From an uncultured bacterium (lineage in GTDB: Bacteria; Verrucomicrobiota; Kiritimatiellia; CAIKKV01; CAIJXV01): a stretch of DNA of 53,350 nt. How positions within the stretch are numbered: the first letter of the stretch is position 1; each line of letters starts with the position of its first letter. Of the stretch, positions 13,001-29,241 are shown in pieces. Where the stretch lies: NCBI GenBank assembly GCA_903824675.1, contig CAIJXV010000001.1, positions 1 through 53,350 of the forward strand, read 5' to 3'. Under the pieces are notes generated by a model, which searched no databases, was not told the origin of the DNA, and was given only the letters and a program-made list of their open reading frames with translations. The translations under genes and the position numbers were made by a program.

Positions 13001-13036
13001 TTACCTGTTATCTTTTGGTTTGTCCCCGATTCTGCG
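12790..13036. repeat. Direct repeat, right copy (247 bp) overlapping a gene end
   Basis: It matches 9674-9897 apart from three substitutions and a 23-bp insertion at 12834-12856. Its last 36 bp encode the final 11 residues and stop of the beta-propeller gene on the minus strand, so either the repeat originated here or it replaced the gene's 3' end. Confidence 0.9.
12834..12856. repeat. 23-bp palindromic insertion within the right direct repeat
   Basis: The inserted sequence starts CCCTTCGGCATGC and continues TCAGGGCAGG; CCCT and AGGG arms enclose a GCATGC palindrome. It is absent from the left copy. A related sequence lies at about 5750-5795. Confidence 0.7.
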
Positions 13037-15034
13037 ATACAGATACACGGTGCCCAACCGATCGGCGGCGCCAATGGCCAGACAGGTGCCATCCGGCGAC
13101 AAGGCGATTGCGTTCAAGACGCTACTGCACGCCAGACCGCAAGGCAAGGTTGACCCGGCAAGCGCGCGGCCCAACTCGCGGACCCCCTGCACCTCATCGT
13201 AATAAAAACACAGTCCCAGATCCGACTCATCTCCCGCCACGCCATAGGCCTTGCTGCGGGTGGGGTCCGTTGTGAAGGCCCGTACCGGCCCATGAATACC
13301 CACGGCGCCCAGGGAATACACGGTTCCAGATGTCGCGTTGACGATGCCCAGCAAACCGTCAAGAGTCCCAACCAGGTATCGCCCACCATTCCAGTCGGCC
13401 CAACAGGATAAGATTGCACGATGCTGACGTCCCGGCCGGTGTGGTAAAGTCAGGCCTTTGAGCACAGAAGGAATCGGCTCGGTCGCAACTCCGGCGGGGG
13501 CACTCCGATCCATGATCTCGACTTGGCCCTCGCGGATGCTGAACGAATGGGGGCCTATGCAGTCACCGGCAAGCGTGGCGTCATCCAGCCATCTGAGGGC
13601 CGTGACCCCGGATTTCTCGGATTCCAGAAGGCGCCACAATCGAATCACCTGTATGTTCTCAGCTTGAATCGCCGCTTGATTCCCCGCCATGAAATGGTTG
13701 GTTTCATCTGTTTTCTCGATATCCTCAATATACGGTTTCAAGCGTTCAGCGGCCTGGGGCAGAGGGGTACAGGTCAGGCGGTCATCCAGATAGACGTAAG
13801 CGTGCGGGTCGTGACTGATTTCCCGAACCAATCCTCTGTTGGCTTTCACAAGGGCCAGATCAATCGCCAGCATGCCCGGCGCATCAGGCCCGTGATTCGT
13901 GTCAGAAAGGTAGAGCGTATGGCCGGCCTGGAGCATATCGCCGCTGTAATAGACGGTCCGCTCGGCGGTGCCTAACAAGCCGTGAACCTGTGGCCGCCCC
14001 CCGCTCCTCAGATCCCACTCGGCCAGGTGAACCCACGTCCCCTGGATCCCGTTAACCGCGCTCGCCAGGCCGTACCAGAGCCGGCCCTCGTCATCGAAGG
14101 CCATTCCCGCCACGTTACGCGGAAAGGTCTTGGGGCCGGGCGGACAGGGATCCACGCTCCCCAGGTCCTCGAATTTCCCGGTTTTCGTATCCAACGCAAC
14201 CAACCGGTCAGAAATATTGTGCGCCATGTAGAACCGGCCATCTGGTCCGGTGGCGGCAAAGGTGAATTGTTTGCGCGCCAACAGATTTGGCGGACCGGGG
14301 AACTGGTAATTGAGGTCGATGATGCGGCGCTGATCCACGTCAATTTTCAGCACCCACCCGCTTGAGGTTGAAGTGTAGATGTGGCCATCCGGCCCGCGCG
14401 CCAGACGAAAGGTCCCGCATTCCGACATCTGGCCCCAATCGGCGACTTCCTGTGTCCGGCAATCATAGCGATAGAGGTGGCCGCGCAGGTAACCGCTCAT
14501 ATAATAGGCGTGGTGACGAGGATCGTAACAGCCGCCGTAAATGCTTTCCCTGGGCACCGGGATTCCCAGGTTCGTAACCTGTCCATTTCCCGGGTCATAA
14601 ACCAACAGATGTGACCCGGCATAACCCTCCCATTGATGGGTATAGTACCCCTCAATCATCCAGGCCGGATGCCCAGGGGCGGGTGCGGTCGTGTGCGTGG
14701 TCATGATCAGCCGTCCATCGTTCATCACATCCATGGAGGTGTGAATTTTACTCGGAGGGATGGCGCGCCCCCCCACCCTGCACACCTCGGCCGCCCGAAA
14801 GCAGCGCGAATAACGGCCTTCGCCCGGGAAGTACTCGTACAGTTCGGCGCTGGCGGAAACAAGGCCTTCGGCGCATAAACTGACAAAGAAACGACCTTCC
14901 GGCGTTCGGTGCATATCCCAGATGGAGTTATGGGGGATCCCCTGGGGAAAATAGACAGCCCGCACCGCCTCCCGGGGCATCATTTCAAAAAAACCAGCGG
15001 GCAGGTCATCGGATCGGATATGGGTTGTATTCAT
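13001..15034 (-). CDS. Beta-propeller (NHL/kelch-like) protein of unknown function
   Basis: The 677-residue protein carries repeated blade-like segments such as GHLYRYDCRTQEVADWG, RLVALDTKTGKFEDLG and GGRYLVGTLDGLLGIVNATSG, spaced by about 50 residues. They indicate one or two beta-propellers that may bind or lyse polysaccharide. No signal peptide or catalytic residues were identified. The ATG at 15034 was chosen over a longer frame because AAGGA lies 8 nt upstream and the upstream gene ends 22 nt before. It is the last gene of the large minus-strand cluster, directly behind the GH67/GH20-like gene. Its last 11 residues are encoded inside the long direct repeat. Confidence 0.7.
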   Translation of the reverse strand: MNTTHIRSDDLPAGFFEMMPREAVRAVYFPQGIPHNSIWDMHRTPEGRFFVSLCAEGLVSASAELYEYFPGEGRYSRCFRAAEVCRVGGRAIPPSKIHTSMDVMNDGRLIMTTHTTAPAPGHPAWMIEGYYTHQWEGYAGSHLLVYDPGNGQVTNLGIPVPRESIYGGCYDPRHHAYYMSGYLRGHLYRYDCRTQEVADWGQMSECGTFRLARGPDGHIYTSTSSGWVLKIDVDQRRIIDLNYQFPGPPNLLARKQFTFAATGPDGRFYMAHNISDRLVALDTKTGKFEDLGSVDPCPPGPKTFPRNVAGMAFDDEGRLWYGLASAVNGIQGTWVHLAEWDLRSGGRPQVHGLLGTAERTVYYSGDMLQAGHTLYLSDTNHGPDAPGMLAIDLALVKANRGLVREISHDPHAYVYLDDRLTCTPLPQAAERLKPYIEDIEKTDETNHFMAGNQAAIQAENIQVIRLWRLLESEKSGVTALRWLDDATLAGDCIGPHSFSIREGQVEIMDRSAPAGVATEPIPSVLKGLTLPHRPGRQHRAILSCWADWNGGRYLVGTLDGLLGIVNATSGTVYSLGAVGIHGPVRAFTTDPTRSKAYGVAGDESDLGLCFYYDEVQGVRELGRALAGSTLPCGLACSSVLNAIALSPDGTCLAIGAADRLGTVYLYRRIGDKPKDNR

Positions 15035-15056
15035 GATTTTTCCTTGGCAGCCGCAC

Positions 15057-16709
15057 TCACAAGGCGGCATTTGAACGCCGCCGGGTTTCCCGGGTGGGCG
15101 GGGCGACCACAATATCGGCATGCTGGGCATGATAGATCCGCATCAGTTCGTGAAACCAGGGTTCGCAGGTGTCCGGCGGAACCCCGTTGCTCTGAAACAT
15201 TTCGGCATCGATCAGGGCGCGCAGATAGAGGATCCGCCAGCGCCATTGCGTACGGGCCCAGGTGGGTAGGTCGGCATCGGCTCTCTGCATCAGCTCCACC
15301 GCGCGACGTGAACCTTTATCCTCCGGCATGAGACATTTCGTATACGGGGGCGAATAATCCCCGTTTTCCCAAGATCGGAGTTGATTGGCTTCATAGATGG
15401 CGATGGCCTGCAGAATGAGTTCGGGGACCTCGGCACCGCATTCATAGGTCATATATTCGTGGGCGGTTTCAAGGGCGGGTCGGCCACTCCAATAAAACTG
15501 GGCCATGATGACCTTGTTGAAATCCTCAAAAATCCCTTCGGAATAGGGAAATCCACCGGCGACTCGCGCGCCTTCATTATTCCACAGGAGCTGCAGGTTG
15601 GCTGGCCTGGGATTGGCGCCAAACCCGCCCCAGGGGACCATTCCATACATGCTGATTTCAGGGAAATCAAGGAGCGGCAAGTTTCCAGGCGACCCATGTT
15701 TAAGCACGTATTCAGGAAACTGCATCTCGTGGCAACCGGCCAGGATATAATCGATCCAGGCGCGCTCTTCGCCCATCCGCGCCGCCAGCCCTTCCCATTC
15801 GCCCTGCGGGGTCCCGTAATCAAAACACCAGGTGGAGAGAATCACTTTCCCGTGGGGAAAATGACGCTTGAACAATTCGCCCACCTTGCGGCCGATCCGG
15901 AGGAATCCATTGGCGCCCCACGGCTTGCAGTTCTCGCAGGCGCAGCCGCCCTGATCATAGGGCCAGACCCAGAGGAAATCCGGGGCGATGGAGGCGAACG
16001 CACGGAATTCCTCGTCGAACCAGCTCAGGGTCTGCTCGATGGCCCCGGGCAGGCTGGGACACAGCTCGACTTTGTAGTGCGCCCGCTGGGTGTTGGAGTC
16101 CGCCCGAAGATTGACGGGGCTCGTCGCATAGGCCTCATTGGCCAGGACCCCGATTCCCGTCTTGAGTCCGATGCGCTTGGCGGCGGCCAGAACATTCCGC
16201 AACCGCTCGAGCATCGCCTGGGCCGCTGGATCATGGATCCCGGTGTAGTGATGCATATCGAACCAGACCTGCAGGACATTGTATCCCCACAGGGCGAGAT
16301 CTTCCACATAGCGGTTCACTTCGGCCAGGGGCGCATCGTGGAAATAATTATGAAAATGGGTGGCAAAATAGATGCCGCGAATCGGTTTGAGCGCGTGCGA
16401 CACTCCGCGCCACGTCGAGGGGACAAAGACGCCCCCCCGATATTGACTGGTCCGGAGAAAATGCCCCATGCCCGCCAGGAGCGTGGCGCAGTCAGTTCCC
16501 CGCAGGCAAATGGCACCCTCCCGATTTTCGATGGCAAAACCCTCCGGCTGGAGGGTGTCGTCCAGCGCGAGGCGGAGATGAATCGCCTGCTCCAGAGGGG
16601 TCGTACAACGAAGGACAATGCGCTCCCGGAGGATGTCCGCAAAAAGATCGGGCACGGTCGCTTCGCTGGAAATATCAGGAAATGGATTCAATGCCAAGGT
16701 TCGACTCAT
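15057..16709 (-). CDS. GH67/GH20-like TIM-barrel protein (putative glycosidase)
   Basis: The 550-residue protein has an N-terminal alpha/beta domain (about 1-95, with REGAICLRGTD) and a TIM barrel, as in GH20 and GH67 families. The segment WVWPYDQGGCACENC contains D252 and cysteines C256, C258 and C261. That cysteine cluster is frequent in alpha-glucuronidase-like and hexosaminidase-like proteins. The GH20 catalytic D-E pair was not found, so the substrate is open. AAGGA precedes the ATG by 8 nt. The propeller gene follows 22 nt downstream. It may be a new or poorly described family; the TIM-barrel assignment is moderately sure. Confidence 0.65.
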   Translation of the reverse strand: MSRTLALNPFPDISSEATVPDLFADILRERIVLRCTTPLEQAIHLRLALDDTLQPEGFAIENREGAICLRGTDCATLLAGMGHFLRTSQYRGGVFVPSTWRGVSHALKPIRGIYFATHFHNYFHDAPLAEVNRYVEDLALWGYNVLQVWFDMHHYTGIHDPAAQAMLERLRNVLAAAKRIGLKTGIGVLANEAYATSPVNLRADSNTQRAHYKVELCPSLPGAIEQTLSWFDEEFRAFASIAPDFLWVWPYDQGGCACENCKPWGANGFLRIGRKVGELFKRHFPHGKVILSTWCFDYGTPQGEWEGLAARMGEERAWIDYILAGCHEMQFPEYVLKHGSPGNLPLLDFPEISMYGMVPWGGFGANPRPANLQLLWNNEGARVAGGFPYSEGIFEDFNKVIMAQFYWSGRPALETAHEYMTYECGAEVPELILQAIAIYEANQLRSWENGDYSPPYTKCLMPEDKGSRRAVELMQRADADLPTWARTQWRWRILYLRALIDAEMFQSNGVPPDTCEPWFHELMRIYHAQHADIVVAPPTRETRRRSNAAL

Positions 16710-16783: not shown

Positions 16784-19429
16784 CTAGAAGACCAATCTTA
16801 CATTCGCTTTGCCACGGAACAGAGTGACGGTGACGGTTTCTGTCTGGGGATCGTAGCGGCCCCCTTCCACGCAGACCGCCTTGCGTCCATCCGGATGGGG
16901 TAAGCGAAGGGTAACAGATGCCGGCAGGCGCCGTTTGTCGCTCAACGTGATGGAAGCGTTGATGACTCCCTTGTTCACCTGGGATACCACTTGGAGATCA
17001 AGCGGGCCAAAGTAACTGGCCACGCGGCGAAGGGTGATCGACTTGCCGTCCTCCATCCAGCGGCGCGGGATTCCGGCCAGCAGCTTCAGCGTGCGGTCGT
17101 GTTCCAGCCAGAGCATCCAGCGGGTCTGCATAAGGAACCAACCCTCCTCATGGGTTTTGTGCTGGCTGGCGTGGCAGTAATGCTCCCAAAAGGTGTAGGT
17201 CTCGCGGTCCTGCAGGGCGCTCATCTGGTTGAAGTAAACTTTTAGAAACGCCTTGACCTCACCCCGAATCAGGTGCGTGAAGTCATGCCGCACATAGTAG
17301 GGCTGGGTCAACGCTGCATTGCGCACGGTGAAGAGGTGCTGATTGCTCTTCAACGCGATCTCCGCACCGATCTCATCGGCCTCCAGCACCTCGCTGAAGA
17401 CCAGCCAAAGCGCGCCGATCACTGAATCGCGTGCGCCGAAGGCGCCGTGGGTGAACCAATTGCCCCCTTCCGCATACAGCGACACGGCCCCGGCGTATTC
17501 CGCCCAGGGCGGAGTGGTGGGAATCCAGGTGCCATCGCCGAGGGAGATCACCGGCGACCGGGCAACCGCTTCGTAATAGGCGGTGCGGATGTCTTCGCGA
17601 TATCCCCGCGCCTCACGCGCCAACCGCTGGGATTGCACGGGATCGATCTCTTTGAGCATTTCGACCACGCGCTTGATCCCCAGATAGGAGACCGCGTTAA
17701 GCATGAAGGAATGGAAAAAATCTTCCGGGTCGCCGACCTTACCGTCGAGCAGTCCATATCCTTTTCCGCGCAACTCGGGTTTCTGGTTGCGCTTGCGCCA
17801 TGCCAGCAGGTAGTCGCAGGCTTTGAGCAGCTTGGGTTTGATCCGGCGCACCCATTTCGTGTCCCGGGTATAGCGGAAATGTTCACCCATCGTCCAGAGG
17901 GCCGGGCCGGTTTCGAGTTGGTATCCCGCGAAATTCTGGATGAATCCGTCCTCCCGCTGCCGCTTGAGAAAGAATTCGATGCTGCGCTCCGCGAGCGAGT
18001 GCCAGCCCATGGTATCGAAGAACTGGATGATCGGGGAGCTTTCCGAACCAATGGGCGCATACCAGCCAATGGTGGCGAGGACGGGGCCCGCGGGTTCCCG
18101 GCCGAGGGCCGCGATGTCGCAGTGGAGCAAGCCGGCCTTGATGCGTTCGTCGATGGCGGCTTCCGGTACGCTGATGGACGCACCGGCCCGCAGTTTGGAA
18201 CGCCAGAACTCACGGCACTCCTCGAGCCGGGCATCGAAGGTCAACTTCGCCATCCGGATGGCGCGATCCTTGGACAGGGGTTGGTGCGGGATGAGAATCT
18301 CAAAAGTGGCAGTGGCGCCGGGTTGAAGCAGAACAGCCATTTCCTCTGCAGGAGCGGGTCGGCCGTTCAGACGGGAAATGGCGTAAACGCGCCCGGACTT
18401 GAAGCGGCCGAAGCCCAGGCGGGCGTCATACGTGTTACCCAGAGCCGGCAGAAAGTGGCCGACTGCCTGGCAGACAGGCGTTTTGAACCAGGCGTAATAG
18501 GGTGTGGCGCTGGTGTTGATGGCTGTGACCCGGATGCGCAGCACGGTTTCCTCGTCGCGATTCACCGTCTCCGCTTGAATCAGATCCTTGAGTTTCTCCA
18601 GTTCCTCCGGCTTCAGCATGTGCCCATTGGTGTTGGGGTAGCAGGCCTGCCATTCCGTACCGCGTAACTTTTGCGCCGTCAAAGGTGACTTCTCGAGCGT
18701 GGCGAAGGCCGTCAGGTTGTAGGTAACCTCCTCCTCCCGTTGGGTTGCGTGCAGGATCGGCAGGCAGCCGTCGTCGAGCCGCCGGGTCATGTCATGTCGG
18801 CAGGCGTCGCCCTTGCCGACCACGAAATTCAGGTAATGCGGTTTGTTGTCGAGTTCGGGGAGGGCGGGACAGACCGAATGGTAGCGCGGCTGAACGTAGC
18901 CCCAGTAGCCCGAGTGGGCATGGTGTCCCATTTCGAAAAAGCGCAGGTCACGGCTCAACCCGAGCCAAGTCGGACATTTTTCGTTCCGGTTGCCGTTGCA
19001 GGAGTTTTCGTAGCTCTCCTCCGGTTCCTGATCGATGCGCTGCTGGACGCTGGACGTGCCCCGGGCCTGGAGGGCGGCAGCCACTTCCGCGTAGGAGCGG
19101 AGCTCGGTGGCCGGCACGACCATCACACCGTAGAGCGCGAGGAGTATGGGATGGTCCGGGTTGACGTCACGGAGAAAGAAGGTAAAGGAGTGCGCGCCGT
19201 TGTGAACCGTGACCCGGGTCGGGTTGGGACCGGGAGCCAGCTTCGCGTTCGTGACCGTGAGCTGAATCCGGCAGGCCTCTTTGCGGGAGAATTGAAACCT
19301 GTCTTTATTGAATGTGCCCTGACCGGAAACGAGTTTACCCCCGCCGAATTCACCGTTGATGACTTCAATGCGTCCCTTGGGTTTGTCGTTCTGCCATTCG
19401 ATCGCTACGGTTACAGAGGTCTTGCTCAT
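16784..19429 (-). CDS. Large six-hairpin-type (alpha/alpha)6 putative glycosidase
   Basis: At 881 residues it has beta-rich N-terminal parts (about 1-390) and a helical C-terminal region with an (alpha/alpha)6-like pattern, including DTMGWHSLAERSIEFFLKRQ and TGPALWTMGEHFRYT. A small beta domain closes it (about 810-881). This is the layout of GH63/GH95/GH78-like enzymes, but I do not recognise a specific family and cannot name catalytic residues. No signal peptide is present. AAGGA lies 8 nt upstream of the ATG. It is preceded by a URO-D-like gene (24-nt gap) and followed by the GH67/GH20-like gene (74-nt gap), which suggests one transcript. Confidence 0.65.
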   Translation of the reverse strand: MSKTSVTVAIEWQNDKPKGRIEVINGEFGGGKLVSGQGTFNKDRFQFSRKEACRIQLTVTNAKLAPGPNPTRVTVHNGAHSFTFFLRDVNPDHPILLALYGVMVVPATELRSYAEVAAALQARGTSSVQQRIDQEPEESYENSCNGNRNEKCPTWLGLSRDLRFFEMGHHAHSGYWGYVQPRYHSVCPALPELDNKPHYLNFVVGKGDACRHDMTRRLDDGCLPILHATQREEEVTYNLTAFATLEKSPLTAQKLRGTEWQACYPNTNGHMLKPEELEKLKDLIQAETVNRDEETVLRIRVTAINTSATPYYAWFKTPVCQAVGHFLPALGNTYDARLGFGRFKSGRVYAISRLNGRPAPAEEMAVLLQPGATATFEILIPHQPLSKDRAIRMAKLTFDARLEECREFWRSKLRAGASISVPEAAIDERIKAGLLHCDIAALGREPAGPVLATIGWYAPIGSESSPIIQFFDTMGWHSLAERSIEFFLKRQREDGFIQNFAGYQLETGPALWTMGEHFRYTRDTKWVRRIKPKLLKACDYLLAWRKRNQKPELRGKGYGLLDGKVGDPEDFFHSFMLNAVSYLGIKRVVEMLKEIDPVQSQRLAREARGYREDIRTAYYEAVARSPVISLGDGTWIPTTPPWAEYAGAVSLYAEGGNWFTHGAFGARDSVIGALWLVFSEVLEADEIGAEIALKSNQHLFTVRNAALTQPYYVRHDFTHLIRGEVKAFLKVYFNQMSALQDRETYTFWEHYCHASQHKTHEEGWFLMQTRWMLWLEHDRTLKLLAGIPRRWMEDGKSITLRRVASYFGPLDLQVVSQVNKGVINASITLSDKRRLPASVTLRLPHPDGRKAVCVEGGRYDPQTETVTVTLFRGKANVRLVF

Positions 19430-19453: not shown

Positions 19454-20602
19454 TTAGGGATACCGTCCGTGATCGCAGGCGGCTTTCGCGGCGGCGAGCA
19501 GATTGGCAGGGGGCGTATGCCGGGCGACGGCACACGCGCTACCCAGGACATAGCGTCCGCCCGGTTTGCCTTCTTTGACGCATCGACTGGCTTCCTCGTA
19601 GACCTGTTCCGGCGTCCCGTTGAGCAGCGTCAGGCAACTGATCCCGCCCATGACGGTGACTTGGTTGCCGACTTTCTCTTTCGTATGCCCGACGCTCATG
19701 CCGCAGGTGGGATCGATGCCATCCATGCCGTCGATGCCGGTTGACGGCACCAGGTCCAGGAAGGGGTTGTAGTTGCCGCAGCAGTGTTTGTAGCAGAGGA
19801 CACCGTGGCGATGGATCTCCTGGGCCAGTTCCCGATACGCGGGTGCGCAGAAATCTTCGTACATCTGCGGCGAAATCACACTGCCGGATGCATAGGAATC
19901 GCCAAAGAGCACAGCGTCGACCCCGAGTTTGATGAAGGCCCTTGAGATTTCGACGGAAATTGCGACGGCCTTGTTGATCAGGGCACGAGCCAGATTCGGT
20001 TCGTCATAGAAGCTGAGCAGCGCCGCCTCGGGGGTGCCCATTTTCTGCACCATGAAGTTCAGCGTCTGTCCAGCACATACGCCCACCGCGAAGAGGTTAT
20101 GCGCGTGAGCCTTCTGAATGCCGACGGCGACATCCTTTAAAAAACCGCGCTGAAGATATTCCTCGGTGGTCAGCACGGGAAGGGCACGGACGTCGTCCAG
20201 GGTCCGGACAGGCGCGGGCTTTTCCAGGCGTTGCAACGTGCCGCCGCCCGCGAGATCGTACTCGCCTTCCCGATGTCCGGTTCGCCGGTCGTATTGAAAT
20301 AGGCAGCCGTCTTCTTCGCGCACGACCTTCTGTTCGTACCAGCTTGACTCCGGGCCGGGGAAATTCCGGACGTGATCGGAGCCGTAGCGGAGGGCGGCGT
20401 CGAGCATGAATTCCGGTGCCCGCGCCGGGTTGATCAGCACCTCTTCAAACCGCTGGCCGCAGGCGAAACAAGCATGGTCGAGATAGAGGGTCGGCGCAAA
20501 GGGCACCCGGTCGGGCGTGCGCCCGGACAAGGCGGCCCGCATGCGGTCGGCCGAAGTCATGGGCTTTGTTTTTTGTGAATCGACTTGTTTCGGCGTATTC
20601 AC
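19454..20602 (-). CDS. URO-D/MtaA-like protein with intact HxC...C zinc motif
   Basis: This 382-residue TIM-barrel protein carries the zinc site of MtaA/CmuA-type methylcobamide methyltransferases: H273-C-C275 in KHCCGN and C357 in GSACAVARHTPPAN. In that family the zinc activates a thiol for methyl transfer to or from a corrinoid protein. I see no corrinoid protein in the window, so the partner is unknown. The GTG at 20602 was chosen because it overlaps the upstream TGA (GTGA), has AAGGG 7 nt upstream and precedes the conserved MTSADRMRAALSGRTPDRVPF region. A longer start would run deep into the GH172 gene. Translational coupling with GH172 implies related jobs. Confidence 0.8.
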   Translation of the reverse strand: MNTPKQVDSQKTKPMTSADRMRAALSGRTPDRVPFAPTLYLDHACFACGQRFEEVLINPARAPEFMLDAALRYGSDHVRNFPGPESSWYEQKVVREEDGCLFQYDRRTGHREGEYDLAGGGTLQRLEKPAPVRTLDDVRALPVLTTEEYLQRGFLKDVAVGIQKAHAHNLFAVGVCAGQTLNFMVQKMGTPEAALLSFYDEPNLARALINKAVAISVEISRAFIKLGVDAVLFGDSYASGSVISPQMYEDFCAPAYRELAQEIHRHGVLCYKHCCGNYNPFLDLVPSTGIDGMDGIDPTCGMSVGHTKEKVGNQVTVMGGISCLTLLNGTPEQVYEEASRCVKEGKPGGRYVLGSACAVARHTPPANLLAAAKAACDHGRYP

Positions 20603-21783
20603 TGAGATCCCTTGCCATGAATTTTTTTCCAGTCGGCTTTCATCTTTTTCATTTCCGGGTTCAGCTTGATCGGCTTGCCGGGGCATTGGTTCGTTTTGTC
20701 AAAGAGCCAATGGCCGAGATTGTCCCGCAAGACTGGCATTCGCTTTTTCACGGAAGGGGGCTTAATGGCTCGCGTGGGCTTGTCCGCAAACCAGTAGGCC
20801 ACGGATGACATCTCGTTGGCCATGTGATTCCCATGCCCATGCTCGATCGTGACCTTGATCTCTTTCTGGAATCTGACGGGATTCTCAACATGAAAGACGT
20901 AACTGGTTTGGTAGGCGCCCTCGCCGGACTCCCAGGTAACCCGTGAAGGAACAACCATTGTCCGCCCCTCAAAAATGGAGCTTCCATTCCGAAGGAAGGC
21001 GTTATCCTGCATACCCCAAGCTTGGTTCAGGTAGTCCTCTGCTCCCGTTCCGTGAAGATCCGGAGGCCACTTGTAGCCATCCACCCAAATCATGTCATCC
21101 CCTTCACCCCACCAGTCTCGCCGGAAGTTGGTTACGCTTAGATTACATCCGAGGTAATGACCACGTCCCTGGGTTTCCAGGATAACGTAGTTGTTCTCCC
21201 AAGCCATTCGTTCTTTATTTACGATATTGGCGAGTGCCATGTTGGAGGTAATCTCGGGGCCCCAGCCACCGAATGGATTGGCTCGGCGGAACTCCGCGTG
21301 AAAATAGCCCACATCCTCCGGCAGGTCGTTCATCGTTTCGTAATCGATATAGAAGTATTGACAGTGGTTCTCTTCGCTCTCGTTGATCAGTTCGATCACG
21401 GCCCGTTCCTTGAAGGGCATCGGTATATACGAATTCAACGCACAGCCCTTATTGAACTGATAGTCGAATCGCGTAGAAGCGGTGAAGAATTGCGATTGAT
21501 ACGACGTGACCATCCCATGGCCCAGGCCGAAAAAATCGCCCAACGGGCATAGCACGCTGGGGAAGGCCGCATTGTCCCAGGTAATGCGGATCAGGCATTC
21601 ACGATAGTGCTTTTCCTGGGTCATCCAGATATGCGTTATCTGACCCGGGCCTTTGATGTCAGCCAGAACGCGGGTCTCCCCCGGGCCGATCATCCACGCA
21701 TCCGCATTGCGCCCGGTCAGGTCCCATGAAGAAGCCCGACCTGTCTTCCGGTTTCGAATCCGTGTGATCTCTTGCATAGACAT
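20599..21783 (-). CDS. GH172-type (DUF2961) glycoside hydrolase
   Basis: The 394-residue protein matches the DUF2961 fold, now family GH172, whose members act on fructofuranose or arabinofuranose compounds. It shows the family opening TGRNADAWMIGPGETRVLAD, then GPGQITHIWMT, and the conserved HGTGAEDYLNQAWG with E249. No signal peptide is present. Start at 21783 (or the ATG two codons later) follows the end of the URO-D-like gene by 19 nt; the ribosome binding site is weak, so coupling to the upstream gene is likely. Its stop overlaps the next URO-D-like start by 4 bp. Family call is firm; substrate is not determined. Confidence 0.85.
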   Translation of the reverse strand: MSMQEITRIRNRKTGRASSWDLTGRNADAWMIGPGETRVLADIKGPGQITHIWMTQEKHYRECLIRITWDNAAFPSVLCPLGDFFGLGHGMVTSYQSQFFTASTRFDYQFNKGCALNSYIPMPFKERAVIELINESEENHCQYFYIDYETMNDLPEDVGYFHAEFRRANPFGGWGPEITSNMALANIVNKERMAWENNYVILETQGRGHYLGCNLSVTNFRRDWWGEGDDMIWVDGYKWPPDLHGTGAEDYLNQAWGMQDNAFLRNGSSIFEGRTMVVPSRVTWESGEGAYQTSYVFHVENPVRFQKEIKVTIEHGHGNHMANEMSSVAYWFADKPTRAIKPPSVKKRMPVLRDNLGHWLFDKTNQCPGKPIKLNPEMKKMKADWKKIHGKGSQ

Positions 21784-21802
21784 AAGGGGTCCATTTTTAC
21801 AT

Positions 21803-22876
21803 TCAGCGGCGAGGTGTTTCCAGTGCCAGGGGAGTTGTAGGCCGCACATTCCGGAATTCCAGAAAGGCCTCGTACAGGGCGATGACATTGTCCAGCGGCG
21901 TTTCGGGCATGATGGAATGGCTGGTGCCGCCGATGTAGCCGCCGTTGAATCGGCCGAACAATTCCACAAGATCATGCACTTCTTTTTTGATGGTATCCGG
22001 CGTACCGTGAATCAAGGTGCCTTGAACGTCGACGCCGCCGTTGAAGCAGACCTTGCCGCCGAATTCCCGCGATAGTTGCCGCACGTCCATGGCCTGCGGC
22101 TGGACTGGATTCAGGACATTCAGCCCGATATCTATCAAGTCGGGAAGGATGGACGTGATGTTCCCACACAGATGCATCCACACATGCGCCCCACCCGAAC
22201 GAACTCGGTCGAACAGACGTTGGTAGGACGGCTTGTAAAATCGGCGCCAGTCATCGGGGTTCATGATCAGGCCTCTCTGGCACCCCCAGTCATCAGAGAA
22301 GAAGACGGCGTGTACTCTGCGCTTCACCCATTGGTCGATGATAGCCAGTTGGTATTCAACGATACGGTCCCGCAATCGGCAGAACTCATTTTCGCTGGCA
22401 TAGGGATCCATCAACATGTTTTCGAACCCCCGCACCATCCAGAGTCGCTCGAAGAGCGTGAACCATACCGACGACAGGAGGTACCGGCTTTCCGGCCCCT
22501 GTAGTTGTGCGTCGGCACGATCGAAACGTCCCGACAGATGAGGATCTGGAAAAACATAATCGGACAACCCTTCATAACCCTGGAGTAACGGATAGGACTC
22601 CGTTTTGCCCCCATGTCCGTCGTCTTCCCATCCGGTCTGCCATTCGTCCGTCCATCGCGTTACCCCATTCAGGGAGGCCGGTTCAACAGCGTTGCGCAGG
22701 GTGTCCGGCAGGCCGAGCAGGTCATTGGGGAATTGCGCGGCGAGTTCCTGTATGCGCGCTCTTTTTGCGGAATTCTTTTCATGGAGCCAATCGAAATTCA
22801 CGCCGAGGGTGCAAGGGAGATATTCTGGCCCCTTGAATTCAATGGCGCGCCTATAGTTGTCGCATCCTGACAGCAT
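21803..22876 (-). CDS. URO-D/MtaA-like protein with HxC and a histidine in place of the third ligand
   Basis: The 357-residue protein shares the URO-D TIM barrel. It has H235-L-C237 in MHLCGN, the first half of the zinc motif, but H320 (GGTSHSIMPETP) where methyltransferases have cysteine. Two ATGs are close: at 22882 AGGAG touches the codon, whereas at 22876 the spacing is 6 nt, so 22876 is preferred. The beta-propeller gene ends 9 nt upstream and GH172 begins 19 nt downstream. Function is unknown; methyl-group metabolism of sugars or aromatics is only a family-based guess. Confidence 0.8.
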   Translation of the reverse strand: MLSGCDNYRRAIEFKGPEYLPCTLGVNFDWLHEKNSAKRARIQELAAQFPNDLLGLPDTLRNAVEPASLNGVTRWTDEWQTGWEDDGHGGKTESYPLLQGYEGLSDYVFPDPHLSGRFDRADAQLQGPESRYLLSSVWFTLFERLWMVRGFENMLMDPYASENEFCRLRDRIVEYQLAIIDQWVKRRVHAVFFSDDWGCQRGLIMNPDDWRRFYKPSYQRLFDRVRSGGAHVWMHLCGNITSILPDLIDIGLNVLNPVQPQAMDVRQLSREFGGKVCFNGGVDVQGTLIHGTPDTIKKEVHDLVELFGRFNGGYIGGTSHSIMPETPLDNVIALYEAFLEFRNVRPTTPLALETPRR

Positions 22877-22885
22877 GGTCATCTC

Positions 22886-24298
22886 CTATCGAAACCGTAA
22901 CGCAAACAGATCCGCATCCTGCATGACCAATCGCAGTCGCACCGTCTGCCCCGTGAGCGGGTTCAGATCGGTGCCATGTTTCCATGCCACGGCATGCTCG
23001 ATTTCGTCGCCGATGATATCCGGGCAATCATCCAGCGCATATCCCGGGATGGGAGTGCCGTTGGCATCCTGAATTTCGACGCGAATGCGACCGGCGGCGC
23101 TGGTGCTGTAGTTGATAACCAGTGCCGTTCCTGTGAACTGCAACGGGTAGGTGCTCATTTCACCGCCCGCGAGCGGGGCGTTGACCGCCGCAAAACCGTC
23201 CGTGCGCAGGACATACCGGTCACCGCTGTGATCGTGGTAGATGGACATTTCCGTCGGGGAGGTGGGGACAACGTTCAGAGCAACGTAGTTCGCCCGGTTA
23301 CCCCAGCGGTCGGGATCGGGGCCCGGACGTATGAATGCCTCCTTGAAGATGCGGGAATAGGGGGTATTGCCGCGGGCCGTCATAAACATGATGTCGGTGC
23401 TCTCGCCACGATTCGCCATGAAGCGCGTGGGGGTGGCGATGTAAATATGCGGCGCGCGAAAATAGGGATGCGTCTGGCTGGTGTAGAGGTGTTCGTCCGG
23501 TTCGTTGGGACACAATATCTGGGTTGGCCCCCAGTTGCGGTAATCCGTCGAGGTGACGCGGGAGATCGACCGTTTGAGCGCCGGCGTCCAGGCGAACGAG
23601 GCGCCATCGGACATGAACCACGTGCGGAAATAGCAGGCGTAGCATTGTTCGTGCTCCGACCAGAACGAGACATTCTGCGAATCGAAGCCGAACTCGCCCG
23701 CGGCGGAGGAGGGAATCACCGGTTCCGGGGAAATCTTGCGCCAGTGAATGGCATCGGGTGAGGCATAGGCATAGAGCCCGCCCTTGATGCCTGGCGGGAT
23801 GGCGGCGGGGTCCGTTTTGCGTGTGACCGTAACGGACTCCTCGTGAAGACCGGCCAGGGCTTTGAAACGCTCATCGGACGGTACGCCGGGGCGGGTGTCG
23901 AGGAAGGGTGAAAAGGTGTGGCAGGCCGGCGATTCGCGGAGGACGGTGTTGTTGGCGGTGCTGCCATTGATGTCGATCACGCCAAGTTGCGGGGAGGTCC
24001 ATTCATGACCGTCGGCGCTTTCGACACAGCATGTCATCACCCCGGGATCGCCATCGTAGTGTTTCCCTTGATACGCCGGAACGGGGGCGCGATATAGTGC
24101 TCGAAATACGGCGCCATCCTTGATCACGGTGGCATACGCGCCAACCAGCGGGCTTTTCGCGCGCGGCATCTTCTGCGGCCTCTGCAGTTGCAGGCGAGTG
24201 CCGTCCATGCGCTCGATCAGATAGTCATCCACCATCAGTTCCAGACGGGAGCCGATATCGCGCGGTGTTTTTGAATCAGAACACGGTTTGTTGCTCAT
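22886..24298 (-). CDS. GH32/GH43-like five-bladed beta-propeller protein with C-terminal beta-sandwich
   Basis: The 470-residue protein opens with RLELMVDDYLIERM and has propeller-like motifs (YASPDAIHWRKISPEP, STDYRNWGPT). It ends in a beta-sandwich module (LVINYSTSAAGRIRVEIQD, then GQTVRLRLVMQDADLFALRF) shared with the products at 24313 and 37182. Such proteins resemble GH32/43/62-clan furanosidases, but the acidic triad could not be placed. The ATG at 24298 is preferred to the GTG at 24310 because AGGAG, overlapping the upstream stop, would otherwise abut the start. It follows its paralogue after 14 nt. Confidence 0.7.
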   Translation of the reverse strand: MSNKPCSDSKTPRDIGSRLELMVDDYLIERMDGTRLQLQRPQKMPRAKSPLVGAYATVIKDGAVFRALYRAPVPAYQGKHYDGDPGVMTCCVESADGHEWTSPQLGVIDINGSTANNTVLRESPACHTFSPFLDTRPGVPSDERFKALAGLHEESVTVTRKTDPAAIPPGIKGGLYAYASPDAIHWRKISPEPVIPSSAAGEFGFDSQNVSFWSEHEQCYACYFRTWFMSDGASFAWTPALKRSISRVTSTDYRNWGPTQILCPNEPDEHLYTSQTHPYFRAPHIYIATPTRFMANRGESTDIMFMTARGNTPYSRIFKEAFIRPGPDPDRWGNRANYVALNVVPTSPTEMSIYHDHSGDRYVLRTDGFAAVNAPLAGGEMSTYPLQFTGTALVINYSTSAAGRIRVEIQDANGTPIPGYALDDCPDIIGDEIEHAVAWKHGTDLNPLTGQTVRLRLVMQDADLFALRFR

Positions 24299-24312
24299 GG
24301 CTTGTCTCACTC

Positions 24313-25854
24313 CTATTTAAGATTCATCGCATACAAACGAGGGCTGACGTCGCCCAATCGGCGGATCCGCACCTGGATTCGCACGGTACGCCCCTTTAAC
24401 TCGGCCAACCCAGGTCCCGGCCAGACGATGGGACAATCGAGCCCGTCGGGGCCCGTGCCCTGCCCCGCACCAAAGCCCGGGATGGGCTGGAATTGTTCAT
24501 CCAGCAACTCGACGGCAAGTCCTGTGACGCCATCGGCATTGAGAGTCAGCGCCCCTCCCCCCGCCGGAATCACCATCGGGGCCGAGCAGACCGCACCCTC
24601 GTTCGCCCCGGGATTCAGCCCCAACGCGCCCCAGCGATCACGGGGCAGTGTGGCCAAGGCGACTTCCCCGGAATAGTGCCTGAAGTTCTGGCCGGTCGCT
24701 GCCCCAAATCCAGCGTTCCGCCAACGTCCATGATAGATACACGTCTCATCGCCGACATTCAGGATGCCGTTGGCCTGACAGAGAATCGTGTTGAAGTTGT
24801 GGCCGGGCACCGGCGTAACCAGCGAGTCCTCCCGCCGTAGAAAGCGATATCCTTTCACCGGCTCGCGGAAATGAATGCCATCATTGGAAACCAACAGCCC
24901 AAAATCGCAGGAGATCTCGTTGAACGATTTCTCGTCCCGCGAGTTGTGCCAAAGCCCATAGAGTCCGACGCAGACGTTGCCGAAGCTGGAGGCGCCGACG
25001 CCCAGGTGGACCTGATCATAATCCCCGTACATGTCGCGCTTGCTCCGGTCTTCCGGTTCGGCCAGGGCAAAGGCTTCGGCCATCAGGTCCGGCCAGTTCG
25101 CAAAATCGGTCGCGGCATGTGCCACCCCGGTCCGGCCACAAGGCGTACCGCCCTCGGCACAATAGCCGGCCCAATTGCCCATGACATGATGATGGATGAT
25201 GTACTGATCGTTGTGCTTGATGAACGAGGAAGGTTCGACAAACTGATTGAGGAAAGGAATGCCGATCACCGTCCAACGCAGGCCGTCCGGCGAGACCGCC
25301 AGCGCGGTCGTCGTCACCTTCCCATATTCTTCAATGAGCGGCTCGGCGTAGGCGGGGGAAAATTGGTAGGTCATTTTGTAGCGGCGCGCGGGATCAGGAT
25401 CCTCCTCGTCCTTGATGACGATCGCGGTGCAGACATTGGCGTGCGGCAACGCCAAGGCGTTATTGTTCCGACTCCCCTTGAAGAGCACCTGCCCGAGAGC
25501 AGGCTTGGTCCACGTAATACCGTCGTTGCTCTCCGCGTAACAGAGAGGCCCTCCGAAAAGAGGCGCCGCGTTGGCGCCGACCCCGTGATATTTCGCCAAC
25601 TGTTGCATCATCTGCGGCGGCCAGTCCGGATTCTTGCCCCAATGACAGGCGTAATACCACATCCGGAACTTGCCCGCATCGTGCAGGACGGTTCCATAAA
25701 AATGCGCCGCCAGATTATCCGGTGCCGGACTATCGAAGGGGCTGGGCTTCAGTACCGCCTCGGGCCGCACGGTGGGTTTGTTGAGATAGAGCCCGACATT
25801 CTTACGGAAGGGCAAAGACACATCATCAATCGCCAGATAGACCGCATTATTCAT
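24313..25854 (-). CDS. GH32/GH43-like beta-propeller protein, larger paralogue
   Basis: This 513-residue protein has a five-blade-like core (AESNDGITWTKPALG, LAVSPDGLRWTVIG, LLVSNDGIHFREPVKG) and the same C-terminal module as its neighbour (LNADGVTGLAVELLD, then LKGRTVRIQVRI). No signal peptide and no obvious ribosome binding site precede the ATG; the upstream aldo/keto reductase gene ends 30 bp before, so translation may depend on that transcript. TTTCCAGAATGAT (25865-25877) lies in that gap. It would be the first gene of the GH172/URO-D block. Likely role is furanoside cleavage or glycan binding, inferred from fold only. Confidence 0.7.
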   Translation of the reverse strand: MNNAVYLAIDDVSLPFRKNVGLYLNKPTVRPEAVLKPSPFDSPAPDNLAAHFYGTVLHDAGKFRMWYYACHWGKNPDWPPQMMQQLAKYHGVGANAAPLFGGPLCYAESNDGITWTKPALGQVLFKGSRNNNALALPHANVCTAIVIKDEEDPDPARRYKMTYQFSPAYAEPLIEEYGKVTTTALAVSPDGLRWTVIGIPFLNQFVEPSSFIKHNDQYIIHHHVMGNWAGYCAEGGTPCGRTGVAHAATDFANWPDLMAEAFALAEPEDRSKRDMYGDYDQVHLGVGASSFGNVCVGLYGLWHNSRDEKSFNEISCDFGLLVSNDGIHFREPVKGYRFLRREDSLVTPVPGHNFNTILCQANGILNVGDETCIYHGRWRNAGFGAATGQNFRHYSGEVALATLPRDRWGALGLNPGANEGAVCSAPMVIPAGGGALTLNADGVTGLAVELLDEQFQPIPGFGAGQGTGPDGLDCPIVWPGPGLAELKGRTVRIQVRIRRLGDVSPRLYAMNLK

Positions 25855-25884: not shown

Positions 25885-26799
25885 TCATGACTTATTCCAG
25901 ACATCATCCGCGTTTTTCTTCCAGAAAAACGGACGAATGATATTTTCCGCGAGCCGGGGGACGGCCTCTTTCACTTCCTGAAACAGGGTTTCAGGCAGAG
26001 GGCCTTTTTCGAGCAACTGTCTGTTCTGCCAGAGCTGGTTGGCATTGTCGACCCCGGTCAAAATACTGCTCACCGCGGGGTTGCTCAGGACAAACCGAAT
26101 GCAGAGTTCCGTCATGCTCAGGCCGGCATCGGCCGCCAGTTTCTCCAATCGCCGACGCACCGGAATAACCTCGCTCAGATCCGGCATGATTTTGTCTTCC
26201 GGCATAATCAGAAGCCCCTGCAAATAGACGCTCCGGGTGAAAACGGAAACCCCGTTCGCCTGGGCTTTGGGAAAAAAGGCGTCAAACCGCTGATCCAGAA
26301 TATTGTAAGGAAGCTGGACATATTTGATCCCGCGGGCAATGATGTCGTCACAGTATTGATTCGTATCCAGGGAAATACCGGCTCCGCCGATCAGCCCTTG
26401 CGTCTCGAGTTTTTTCAGGATTCCAACATATTGGATATCGGTTTCAACGTGGATCAGGCAGGCTCCGAGCCGCTCGATTTTCAAGCGTTTCAGTGAAGTT
26501 TCCACGCTTTCGACAATATGCTTTTCCGCTTCGCGATCGGACAGATTCAGTCCGCCCATATTCTCGATTTTGCTGATGACCTGCATTTTATCCTTCAACC
26601 CCAGTTCACTCAGGGCGCGCCCCAGCACCTCTTCGCTGTCGCCGTAATTCGGCGAAGTGTCCAGGCAGTTAACCCCGCATTCGAAGGCCGCCTTGATGAT
26701 GTCCCTGGCGGTCTCGTAGGAAGGCTTCCCGGCACTGTTGGCTATTCCATAGTTCAATCCGAACTGGACGGTACCTAACATTAATTTAGAAAAAAACAT
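25885..26799 (-). CDS. Aldo/keto reductase
   Basis: The 304-residue protein shows the AKR barrel with the catalytic tetrad D47, Y52 (DTSPNYG), K77 (ISKIEN) and H117 (LIHVETD), so an NAD(P)H-linked carbonyl reduction or alcohol oxidation is expected. C-terminal LSNPAVSSILTGVDNANQL is the usual cofactor-binding segment. AAGGA precedes the ATG by 5 nt and overlaps the end of the ceramidase-like gene, 7 nt upstream. It closes the operon that begins at 31744. Together with the Gfo/Idh and DegT enzymes it may work on a keto- or amino-sugar; the exact substrate is unknown. Confidence 0.88.
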   Translation of the reverse strand: MFFSKLMLGTVQFGLNYGIANSAGKPSYETARDIIKAAFECGVNCLDTSPNYGDSEEVLGRALSELGLKDKMQVISKIENMGGLNLSDREAEKHIVESVETSLKRLKIERLGACLIHVETDIQYVGILKKLETQGLIGGAGISLDTNQYCDDIIARGIKYVQLPYNILDQRFDAFFPKAQANGVSVFTRSVYLQGLLIMPEDKIMPDLSEVIPVRRRLEKLAADAGLSMTELCIRFVLSNPAVSSILTGVDNANQLWQNRQLLEKGPLPETLFQEVKEAVPRLAENIIRPFFWKKNADDVWNKS

Positions 26800-26806
26800 G
26801 TTATCC

Positions 26807-28252
26807 TTACTCCTCAGGGAAGGAGCAGATACTCAATCTGTCCCTCACGGGGTCGGGCCTGGAGGTTGCAGTCTGGCGTATCAATGTTTCGAGAATGCCT
26901 CGCGTCCTCTCTTCTGCTTCGGCAACGAAAGGCCCGGGATGGTCGTAGAACCGCCAGGCCCAGTCCGTCTCGTAGCCGCCATCAGCCTGGCATTGCGCAG
27001 TTGGAAGGTAGCCGACGAGGGGACTTGCGTAACCCAGTACAATGACAAGGTCATCGGGATTCGCAGCCTGCAATGAGCGGGCGGTCTCCTGAAAAACCTC
27101 TGCGGCGATGGCGACAAAAACCAGATGCCCCATCCTGAAGATAGAAAGCGCAAGCTCACAGGAAACCGGGAGCGTTGCTTGAGTCAGGACTTTCCCGCTC
27201 CACATCCTCATGCAGTCCGCTATATAGCGCATCATCTTTGGGTCGGCGGTCTTTCCTGCTTCCACATTCAAGATGTTGGTGAGAACGGCTATGGACGCCT
27301 CGGGGCCCGAGCCGGTCCTGGCTATTTCCGCCATTCCATCATGGAAGCGACGAATGGAATTCGTATCGGTCCCCAGCATGTAGGGGAGCTGGATTGAAGT
27401 CCGCATAAAGCCGAATGGCCATTCATTGAGGCCGTGACTGAAGCGGAGATGGCTCAGTCTTGAAATGATGGCGTCACAATTGGCCGTCATTTCCTCGCGG
27501 TTCATTTTCGAGAAGGGAGGATTCAGGTCACCGCAGGCGCCCTGAAGGAACACGACCGGTATTCTCCATGTGTCCTCCAGCCTCGAGCAGAGCAGGCCCG
27601 GAAAATCCCCGGAAATTTCAAGACCGCCCAGAGTACAGGGATGTGCGGCCCAGGAAAGCATGGCAACCAGAGCTGTGCCGCCTGCATCTTCGAAGCGAAG
27701 GATATGCATGGATTCCTGGTCAGGACCGCGGCGAACCACTTTCCCCTGGGGGAACTGGCCCATCACGACCCGTCCGTCATCCAGTACCGAGTGGCGGTTG
27801 TAGTTCGACCCTGGCAGGTCCACCTGAGCGAGCCTCAGGCTTGCGTCGACCCTTCTCCGTGAAGCCTCAACTGCGGCTTCAACCGACTTTTCCACCAGGC
27901 TGCTCCAATAGGCAGGCTCGGAGACTCCGCATCCGAGCAGGGTAATGGTTGCAGGGGCGCTGTGGGTGTGGGTACAGACGAATATCCGGTTGTCTCGTGT
28001 AGGAAGCGCCTGGCCGGTACTGCCAAGCGCGTTGTCCAGCGCCGCTTGCAGCCTCTCATCCAGTTCGGGGCCCAGGGCGAGAAGATCGAAGGAAAGCATC
28101 AACACGGATGCGCCGTCATTTTCAAACAGGATTGCCTTTACATAGATTGGATCGGCTATTCCCGTTGATGGAGCGTTGCACCTTGAGGCGAATCCTGAAA
28201 GCGTGATGCCCGGTTTCGGCGTAATGTTTCGACGGGCATATCCTAACTTCAT
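26807..28252 (-). CDS. Neutral/alkaline ceramidase-like amidase (catalytic domain only)
   Basis: The 481-residue protein matches the N-terminal catalytic domain of neutral ceramidases: GYARRNITPKPGITLSGF at the start, zinc ligands H95 and H97 in CTHTHSAP and H204 in WAAHPCTLGG, and QGACGDLNP for the active-site loop. Classical enzymes are about 640 residues and secreted; this one lacks a signal peptide and the C-terminal Ig-like domain. Zinc-dependent hydrolysis of an amide bond is likely, but ceramide is not an obvious substrate here. Its ATG overlaps the Gfo/Idh stop (ATGA). Position among aminotransferase and dehydrogenase genes suggests an N-acyl amino-sugar or aminocyclitol substrate. 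Confidence 0.82.
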   Translation of the reverse strand: MKLGYARRNITPKPGITLSGFASRCNAPSTGIADPIYVKAILFENDGASVLMLSFDLLALGPELDERLQAALDNALGSTGQALPTRDNRIFVCTHTHSAPATITLLGCGVSEPAYWSSLVEKSVEAAVEASRRRVDASLRLAQVDLPGSNYNRHSVLDDGRVVMGQFPQGKVVRRGPDQESMHILRFEDAGGTALVAMLSWAAHPCTLGGLEISGDFPGLLCSRLEDTWRIPVVFLQGACGDLNPPFSKMNREEMTANCDAIISRLSHLRFSHGLNEWPFGFMRTSIQLPYMLGTDTNSIRRFHDGMAEIARTGSGPEASIAVLTNILNVEAGKTADPKMMRYIADCMRMWSGKVLTQATLPVSCELALSIFRMGHLVFVAIAAEVFQETARSLQAANPDDLVIVLGYASPLVGYLPTAQCQADGGYETDWAWRFYDHPGPFVAEAEERTRGILETLIRQTATSRPDPVRDRLSICSFPEE

Positions 28253-29241
28253 GCAAGGCCCTCTCCCAATGCCTTTTCTATCCCAATAGCGATAGCCAGT
28301 GCGTCGCGGGCATCCTGGCTTCTTCCAAGTTCAGGCCGTTTGCCCGAGCGTACGCAGTCAAGGAAATACGCTATCTCGTAAAAATAACCATCCCGTTCTT
28401 CGGCACTCTCGTTCTGGTTGAAAGTCCTCGATCCGCTGACTGCGACCGTTTCCCGAACGCCCTTCTTGACGATGGAAAGGCTGCCGCCCGAACCGTCAAA
28501 TTCGATGCTTCCGGTCTCGCCGACGATCATGAAGGCCATGCGAAAAGGAAAGCCTTTGGGCATGGAATAGGAGGCTTCGACGGTTGCTGTCACATCATTC
28601 CTGAGAGTCATGCAGGCGGAAAAATCCATGGGGTTGCCAGCGGCGGAAACCTTTACAGGCATACCGGCCAGCTGGTTGATGATGTCAAAGTCGTGGATCG
28701 CGAGGTCGCGTACCGCGCCGCCTGAAAGTCTGGAATCGAGAAGCCAGTTGCCTGCGGACCATGCCGGCGGGGTAGAAAGCCTCTGGCATGATATCCGCCT
28801 GAGCTTTCCGATGCCGCCCTCATTGACCATCCTTGCCGCCTCGACATATTCCGGCCAAAAACGAAGGACATGGGCAACCATGAAGCATTTGCCGGAAGCA
28901 TTTCCAGCGGCGACCATTTCATCCGCCTCCGCGAGACTGTTGGCGATGGGCTTTTCGCAGAGCACGTTCTTTCCGGCCTGGAGGGCGCGCAGGCAGAGTT
29001 CATGGTGGAATCCGGTAGGCAGGCAAATGTCTATGACATCGACGGAAGGGTCATCCAGGACGGTTTGAATATCAGCCAGGCCCCTGGCAGCCGGCTTGAG
29101 CGATGCAGCGAGGCTTTCGGCGCGGCTAAGGTTGGAGTCGACGACAAAGGCAATCTCGGCCTCAAGGCACCCTTTCAGGTATGAGGTGGCGTGTGTCTTG
29201 CCCATGAATCCGGCACCGATGACAGCGACCCTTGTCTTCAT
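28249..29241 (-). CDS. Gfo/Idh/MocA-family NAD(P)-dependent dehydrogenase
   Basis: A canonical 330-residue member: Rossmann motif VAVIGAGFMG (5-14), substrate motif E96-K97-P98 and a C-terminal alpha/beta domain containing RDLAIHDFDII. It would oxidise or reduce a hydroxyl/keto group on a sugar or cyclitol in the cytoplasm. It overlaps the aminotransferase gene upstream and the ceramidase-like gene downstream by 4 bp each, so all three are tightly coupled. In aminosugar pathways such as kanosamine synthesis a Gfo/Idh enzyme makes the keto-sugar that a DegT/StrS enzyme aminates, or the reverse. Confidence 0.9.
   Translation of the reverse strand: MKTRVAVIGAGFMGKTHATSYLKGCLEAEIAFVVDSNLSRAESLAASLKPAARGLADIQTVLDDPSVDVIDICLPTGFHHELCLRALQAGKNVLCEKPIANSLAEADEMVAAGNASGKCFMVAHVLRFWPEYVEAARMVNEGGIGKLRRISCQRLSTPPAWSAGNWLLDSRLSGGAVRDLAIHDFDIINQLAGMPVKVSAAGNPMDFSACMTLRNDVTATVEASYSMPKGFPFRMAFMIVGETGSIEFDGSGGSLSIVKKGVRETVAVSGSRTFNQNESAEERDGYFYEIAYFLDCVRSGKRPELGRSQDARDALAIAIGIEKALGEGLA

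Follow-up and report, generated by a model that had tools for sequence, protein, structure and literature searches.

Two URO-D-fold proteins with different metal sites flank a GH172 enzyme in a carbohydrate-type gene run of an uncultured Kiritimatiellia bacterium

Organization of the locus

The window, which is the whole stretch of 53,350 nucleotides that was analysed, features a co-directional run of 13 carbohydrate-type genes on the minus strand, reading from position 31744 down to ~13001. Most of the gaps between the genes span from a few bases to 74 bp, and the run is therefore likely an operon. The first gene (30527..31744) has a ribosome site and encodes a GHL6/GHL10 glycosyl hydrolase-like protein that scores below the Pfam cut-offs. 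It is followed by genes for a DegT/DnrJ/EryC1 aminotransferase (29238..30524, PF01041), a Gfo/Idh/MocA sugar oxidoreductase (28249..29241, PF01408, PF22725, and PF02894), a neutral ceramidase-like protein (26807..28252, PF04734, E=1.5e-8), and an aldo/keto reductase (25885..26799, PF00248). The next two genes (24313..25854 and 22886..24310) encode putative beta-propeller glycosidase-like proteins that have no Pfam match, and for the former no PDB match was found either; their propeller fold is predicted from motifs. After these come the three genes that are central here, encoding the URO-D-fold protein B (21803..22882), a GH172 (DUF2961) alpha-furanosidase family enzyme (20599..21783), and the URO-D-fold protein A (19454..20602 from a GTG start or 19454..20560 from an ATG start). 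Directly downstream of URO-D A, after 24 bp, lies the gene for an 881-aa protein (16784..19429) with no family match in Pfam and no PDB match. It is followed by a glycoside-hydrolase-like protein (15057..16709) whose weak NAGLU_N similarity does not reach the Pfam cut-off. The last co-directional gene (13001..15130) shows weak strictosidine-synthase-like similarity, and neither its start nor its membership of the operon is certain. The profile search and the alignments agree with the original prediction that two URO-D-fold proteins with differing metal sites flank a GH172 enzyme, and a chance origin of this observation is not plausible.

The GH172 enzyme is, judged by its sequence, a genuine member of its family. 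It scores 239 bits against DUF2961, matches alphaFFase1 (7v1v) with E=1.8e-90, and both catalytic glutamates, the equivalents of E270 and E291 in alphaFFase1, are conserved. Other solved relatives include a D-arabinofuranosidase. A list of open reading frames placed the GH172 start at 21975, inside the gene for URO-D B, which is probably false; ATG 21783 agrees with the homologues, whose sequences begin there. At the other end of the gene, GTG 20602 of URO-D A shares the letters GTGA with the GH172 stop, giving a 4-bp overlap, and is preceded by AAGGGA. The orthologs of URO-D A, however, start at the position matching ATG 20560. The overlap that had been described between GH172 and one of the starts therefore exists if translation of URO-D A begins at GTG 20602 but is lost with the ATG start, which the orthologs favour.

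Metal sites of the URO-D proteins

Both proteins belong to PF01208, with scores of 135 bits for URO-D A and 90 bits for URO-D B against a cut-off of 23.9. The H273, C275, and C357 site proposed for URO-D A is exactly as claimed when numbered from GTG 20602, and becomes H259, C261, and C343 when counted from ATG 20560. In a phmmer alignment the three residues match those of HICG and APGC in MtaA (4ay7), and the H-x-C...C triad is invariant across 7 A orthologs from three PVC groups. URO-D A thus carries the MtaA/CmuA-type triad, and its predicted site may hold zinc. The residues claimed for URO-D B, H235, C237, and H320, are correct from the second Met and are H237, C239, and H322 in the full ORF. 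URO-D B lacks the H-x-C...C triad; its third ligand is His322, which aligns with the third ligand Cys of MtaA and sits in 'GTSHSIMPETP', a context resembling HemE. The two proteins are not recent duplicates; they share 23% identity and belong to separate, supported clades in the tree of the genome's URO-D proteins.

The nearest solved sequence to each protein is MtaA, and for both AF2 models (pLDDT 82.6 for URO-D A and 71.8 for URO-D B) the best Foldseek PDB match is 4ay8, also MtaA. For URO-D A, VIA-align ties MtaA and UroD structures at Z ~30, and the fold alone therefore cannot choose between them. The likeness to MtaA, MtbA, and CmuA extends to the URO-D fold and, for URO-D A, the H-x-C...C motif. 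Both proteins nevertheless score far below the cut-off of 235.4 bits for the MtaA/CmuA family (TIGR01463), at 101.5 bits for URO-D A and 52.1 bits for URO-D B, and they differ further in the third ligand of URO-D B and in the sugar operon that surrounds them.

A profile search found 40 URO-D matches in the genome, of which 39 were aligned over the site. The H-x-C...H pattern occurs in 9, including URO-D B, D-x-D...H in 8, and H-x-C...C in 2, the rest being mixed. The H-x-C...C pattern is carried only by URO-D A and by a separate, full-length MtaA-like protein on contig C105, while the D-x-D...H paralogs form a clade of eight in the tree. The contrast between the two metal sites is thus real but less special than first proposed, with the type of URO-D B being the commonest in the genome and that of URO-D A being rare. 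Among URO-D B and 29 B-like proteins from relatives, H-x-C...H is found in 15/30 and H-x-D...H in 5/30, and the first site His is kept in all 30. Because the H-x-C...H site is the commonest type among the genome's URO-D proteins and recurs in relatives, it is a recurrent variant and not a product of decay. Simple operon statistics over all URO-D genes found no dominant partner family around them; their neighbours are varied and include GH29, Radical SAM, and lactate racemase N domain proteins, among others.

The suggestion that the URO-D genes encode ordinary HemE tetrapyrrole enzymes misread as methyltransferases, which has the shared Pfam family in its favour, is highly improbable. The hemE profile TIGR01464 scores URO-D A at 33.4 and URO-D B at 29.8 bits against a cut-off of 302.95, and no canonical HemE was found among the genome's 40 URO-D matches, the best of which reaches 191 bits and is MtaA-like. 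The top URO-D matches in relatives reach 380–450 bits, which we take to be the range of canonical HemE. A different possibility is that URO-D B, and perhaps URO-D A, do not transfer methyl groups and instead use the URO-D barrel for metal-dependent chemistry on sugar acids, as decarboxylases, lyases, or isomerases. The metal site that varies widely over the 39 paralogs with its D-x-D...H clade of eight, the HemE-like surroundings of His322, and the Gfo/Idh/MocA and aldo/keto reductase genes of the operon would fit such a role; it is nonetheless unlikely, as URO-D B is nearest to MtaA in both fold and sequence, and the relatives described below also argue against it.

The zinc of the H-x-C...C site in MtaA activates a thiol acceptor, and thioethers and thiol acceptors are therefore the main alternative to a sugar substrate for URO-D A. 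URO-D A would then resemble MtaA and the Mlp proteins in handling the acceptor or methyl-sulfur compounds. Its zinc would activate a thiol, the methyl group would move from or to a corrinoid protein with a thiol or homocysteine as partner, and the enzyme would have no direct role in sugar metabolism. This role is rather improbable: the site of URO-D A is of the thiol-activating type, but the protein is distant from MtaA by its TIGR01463 score, and the genome encodes the separate MtaA-like protein on contig C105.

Corrinoid carrier, activase, and tetrahydrofolate genes

The genome contains 15 matches to the B12-binding family PF02310, of which one is a stand-alone protein. This protein of 221 aa on contig C20 features the DLHDIG form of the DxHxxG motif, and its closest match among solved proteins is the cobalamin-binding 1y80 (E=5e-63). 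The other 14 matches carry the radical-SAM CxxxCxxC motif in 12 cases and neither motif in 2, and DxHxxG is found in none of them. No URO-D gene was found in the 20 kb examined near the corrinoid protein gene, and no corrinoid gene was found near the window or beside URO-D A or B; both results count against the methyltransferase reading preferred below. Nothing in the analysis contradicts the earlier statement that the window holds no corrinoid protein. A single RACo/AcsV-like corrinoid activase is encoded on contig C5. Four adjacent genes on contig C32 encode a methyl-THF:corrinoid-type pterin methyltransferase, a formate-THF ligase, an MTHFR-family protein, and FolD. A CdhC/ACS match was not found in the genome, so that CODH/ACS does not account for the activase. 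MetH was likewise rejected as the enzyme served by the corrinoid protein, given that no MetH-type B12 domain is present among the 15 PF02310 matches; the genome has an HcyMT/MTHFR fusion in place of MetH.

All four components of an O-demethylase, MT1, corrinoid protein, activase, and MT2, are therefore encoded in the genome, with the corrinoid protein on contig C20 and not beside MT1. In acetogens, three-component O-demethylases and CdmBCA comprise a URO-D MT1, a corrinoid protein, an activase, and an MT2 that delivers to THF, together with MTHFR, FolD, and formate-THF ligase (PMC13222342). Those systems act on aryl ethers or haloalkanes and feature an MT1-CP-MT2 cluster, whereas here the same parts occur with no cluster, with no ACS match, and in a carbohydrate context. 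The same study describes URO-D O-demethylases closer to CdmB that can be without the H-x-C...C zinc, which counts against a zinc-dependent role in demethylation for URO-D A.

Type 1 mlp clusters of non-methanogens, reported by Kountz and Balskus (PMC10418091), pair several URO-D methyltransferases with a single corrinoid protein and a single activase. They are defined by at least two Mlps, a corrinoid protein, and an activase that are co-directional within 2 kb, with no THF methylase near. The genome falls outside this definition, with the corrinoid protein on contig C20, the activase on contig C5, and URO-D A and B on contig C1. The Mlp clusters are compact and without a THF methyltransferase, in contrast to the dispersed genes here with ~40 URO-D matches, a THF operon, and sugar genes. 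Mlp clusters have been proposed for methyl-sulfur and selenide roles (PMC10418091), which lends some support to an acceptor-side or methyl-sulfur role for URO-D A. Membership of PF01208 is clear from the scores above its cut-off and from models that match 4ay8 and UroD structures. Since both proteins score below the MtaA/CmuA and HemE cut-offs and lie outside the definition of the compact cluster, they are assigned to the URO-D superfamily only.

Conservation in relatives

The comparison set consisted of 155 relatives, in which a URO-D count near 12 per genome is a lower bound; all of the genomes concerned are MAGs or appear to be. At least 3 URO-D proteins are encoded in 78 of the 89 genomes with RACo versus 4 of the 66 without. 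The association holds under permutation within taxonomic families (p about 5e-5), although it may come in part from an anaerobic lifestyle and is no proof that each URO-D protein uses the carrier. A homologue of the stand-alone corrinoid protein is present in all four RACo-less genomes with at least 3 URO-D proteins, and the missing RACo may therefore reflect assembly loss. An expansion that tracks a corrinoid activase argues against sugar-acid chemistry for these proteins. URO-D A and its orthologs, from Verrucomicrobiota, Lentisphaerota, and Planctomycetota MAGs, form one clade with 100/100 support, and a homologue of the C20 corrinoid protein is present in 6/6 of the other genomes with an A ortholog. 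The original prediction had proposed looking for corrinoid protein genes in relatives, and such co-occurrence was found in the genomes with A orthologs.

In L096, an Opitutaceae MAG, the A ortholog starts a same-strand operon that continues with a homocysteine S-methyltransferase family gene (S-methyl_trans), an MTHFR with DUF5981, a Pterin_bind methyltransferase, and FTHFS. This methyl-THF operon speaks against sugar-acid chemistry for URO-D A. Its bearing on an acceptor-side role is divided: a homocysteine S-methyltransferase family protein adjoins the A ortholog, but the formate-THF ligase and MTHFR genes are also there, and A lies in sugar operons in two further genomes. The second of these, after the window itself, is L095, a Sedimentisphaerales MAG of the Planctomycetes, where the gene that directly precedes the A ortholog encodes a relative of the window's propeller-like proteins (E=1e-10 for the product of 22886..24310 and E=6e-10 for that of 24313..25854). 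A coupling to sugar breakdown is supported by the gene context in these two genomes. A GH172 gene was found beside the A ortholog in 0/6 relatives in the DNA around the ortholog, which is weak negative evidence because several of the contigs are short. A coupling specific to furanosides is therefore unsupported, and the missing conservation of GH172 beside A also counts against the reading preferred below. The earlier proposal of methyl or C1 chemistry linked to a furanoside is well supported in its first part for URO-D A, through the corrinoid, activase, and THF genes of the genome, the L096 operon, and the co-occurrence in relatives, and not in its link through GH172.

Proposed function

The preferred reading is that URO-D A is a zinc-dependent methyl-donor:corrinoid-protein methyltransferase of the MT1 type. 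URO-D B would probably be another such enzyme, acting on a different substrate through its H-x-C...H site. A probability of roughly 0.55 is given to this reading. Methyl transfer by URO-D A is likely, while URO-D B is less certain, as it shares the fold and family but differs in the third ligand and lacks a gene context that speaks for it separately. Neither URO-D B nor the D-x-D...H paralogs need be corrinoid enzymes. The presumed substrate of URO-D A is an O-methyl sugar, and the most economical guess for the methyl donor is the methyl ether of a sugar that the operon's glycosidases set free.

The GH172 enzyme, the propeller-like proteins, and the other glycoside hydrolase-like proteins would release a methylated sugar, and the metal of URO-D A would polarise its methyl ether (or a thioether) so that the methyl group passes to Co(I) of the corrinoid protein. 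The 221-aa protein on contig C20 would be the carrier common to many URO-D enzymes, to which URO-D A presumably docks, and the activase on contig C5 would keep it reduced. The pterin methyltransferase on contig C32 would unload the methyl-corrinoid to THF, if the methyl group flows in this direction, and the MTHFR-like protein and FolD would oxidise methyl-THF to formyl-THF. Formate-THF ligase would then release formate and ATP, a final step that is drawn from pathway knowledge. Given that no ACS match was found, the fate of the methyl group is likely formyl-THF and formate and not acetate. A broader and more tentative proposal, which we consider possible though doubtful, is a hub-and-spoke arrangement in anaerobic PVC bacteria. 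In this scheme, dozens of URO-D enzymes from separate catabolic operons would demethylate O-methylated sugars, and all would load the same corrinoid protein, from which a THF pathway would produce formate.

URO-D corrinoid methyltransferases, three-component O-demethylases, and multi-Mlp clusters are already known. Two features appear to be new, namely the dispersed arrangement, in which a single carrier stands against ~40 URO-D matches, and the setting in a sugar operon. In the part of the literature that was searched, no account of the URO-D expansion in PVC bacteria was found, nor was a description of oxygen-free sugar demethylation by URO-D and corrinoid proteins. As the expansion tracks the activase and the carrier, and one orthologous group lies in a methyl-THF operon, large unexplained gene sets labelled uroporphyrinogen decarboxylase in relatives gain a testable function. 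The characterised case of sugar O-demethylation that the search did find is in porphyran degraders, where a P450 mono-oxygenase demethylates 6-O-methyl-D-galactose and gives formaldehyde (PMC10033563). The proposed outcome is the same, demethylation of a methoxy sugar in a polysaccharide locus, but the route proposed here would be corrinoid-based and would need no oxygen. If the substrate is a methyl sugar, the system would stand beside the P450 route as its oxygen-independent counterpart, and it would bear on how carbon from methylated polysaccharides is turned over in anoxic sediment and groundwater. The use of one carrier by many methyltransferases also poses a question of protein docking.

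URO-D paralogs and their genomic neighbourhoods

The source genome contains URO-D paralogs whose metal-site patterns depart from that of MtaA. Eight of these paralogs (C14, C51, C83, C116:93115, C32:16217, C39, C13:33457, and C102, numbered by contig) form one supported clade, in which the zinc triad is replaced by a D-x-D...H pattern. A 744-aa open frame (L022:10433-12667) features two tandem URO-D matches, and a H-x-C-G motif was not found in any part of this frame. A near full-length MtaA-like protein with the motifs HICG...GPEC is encoded on contig C105 (C105:111644-112627, L020:3630-4634), and its profile score is slightly below the MtaA/CmuA family cut-off. The gene is solitary. Relatives that lack the corrinoid activase often have a canonical HemE, but none was seen in the source genome. 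A homocysteine S-methyltransferase/MTHFR fusion is encoded at C13:48118-49977 (L102:4119-5978), and a MetH-type B12 domain was not found in this genome.

In a Lentisphaeria MAG (L093:2347-4446), an A ortholog is followed by two more URO-D genes in the same direction. The source genome encodes a paralog of B at C48:22503, which is 39% identical to B (L103:5242-13100). This neighbourhood echoes the window operon, in that an alpha-L-fucosidase gene directly precedes the paralog and that a gene whose start resembles the ceramidase-like protein of the window and a Gfo/Idh-like gene are located nearby.

Radical SAM genes adjoin the URO-D genes C50:16356 and C93:118409 (L021:14770-16011 and L036:5283-6347), and a LarA-like (lactate racemase N-domain) gene is located immediately ahead of the URO-D gene C13:40996 (L026:11143-12708).
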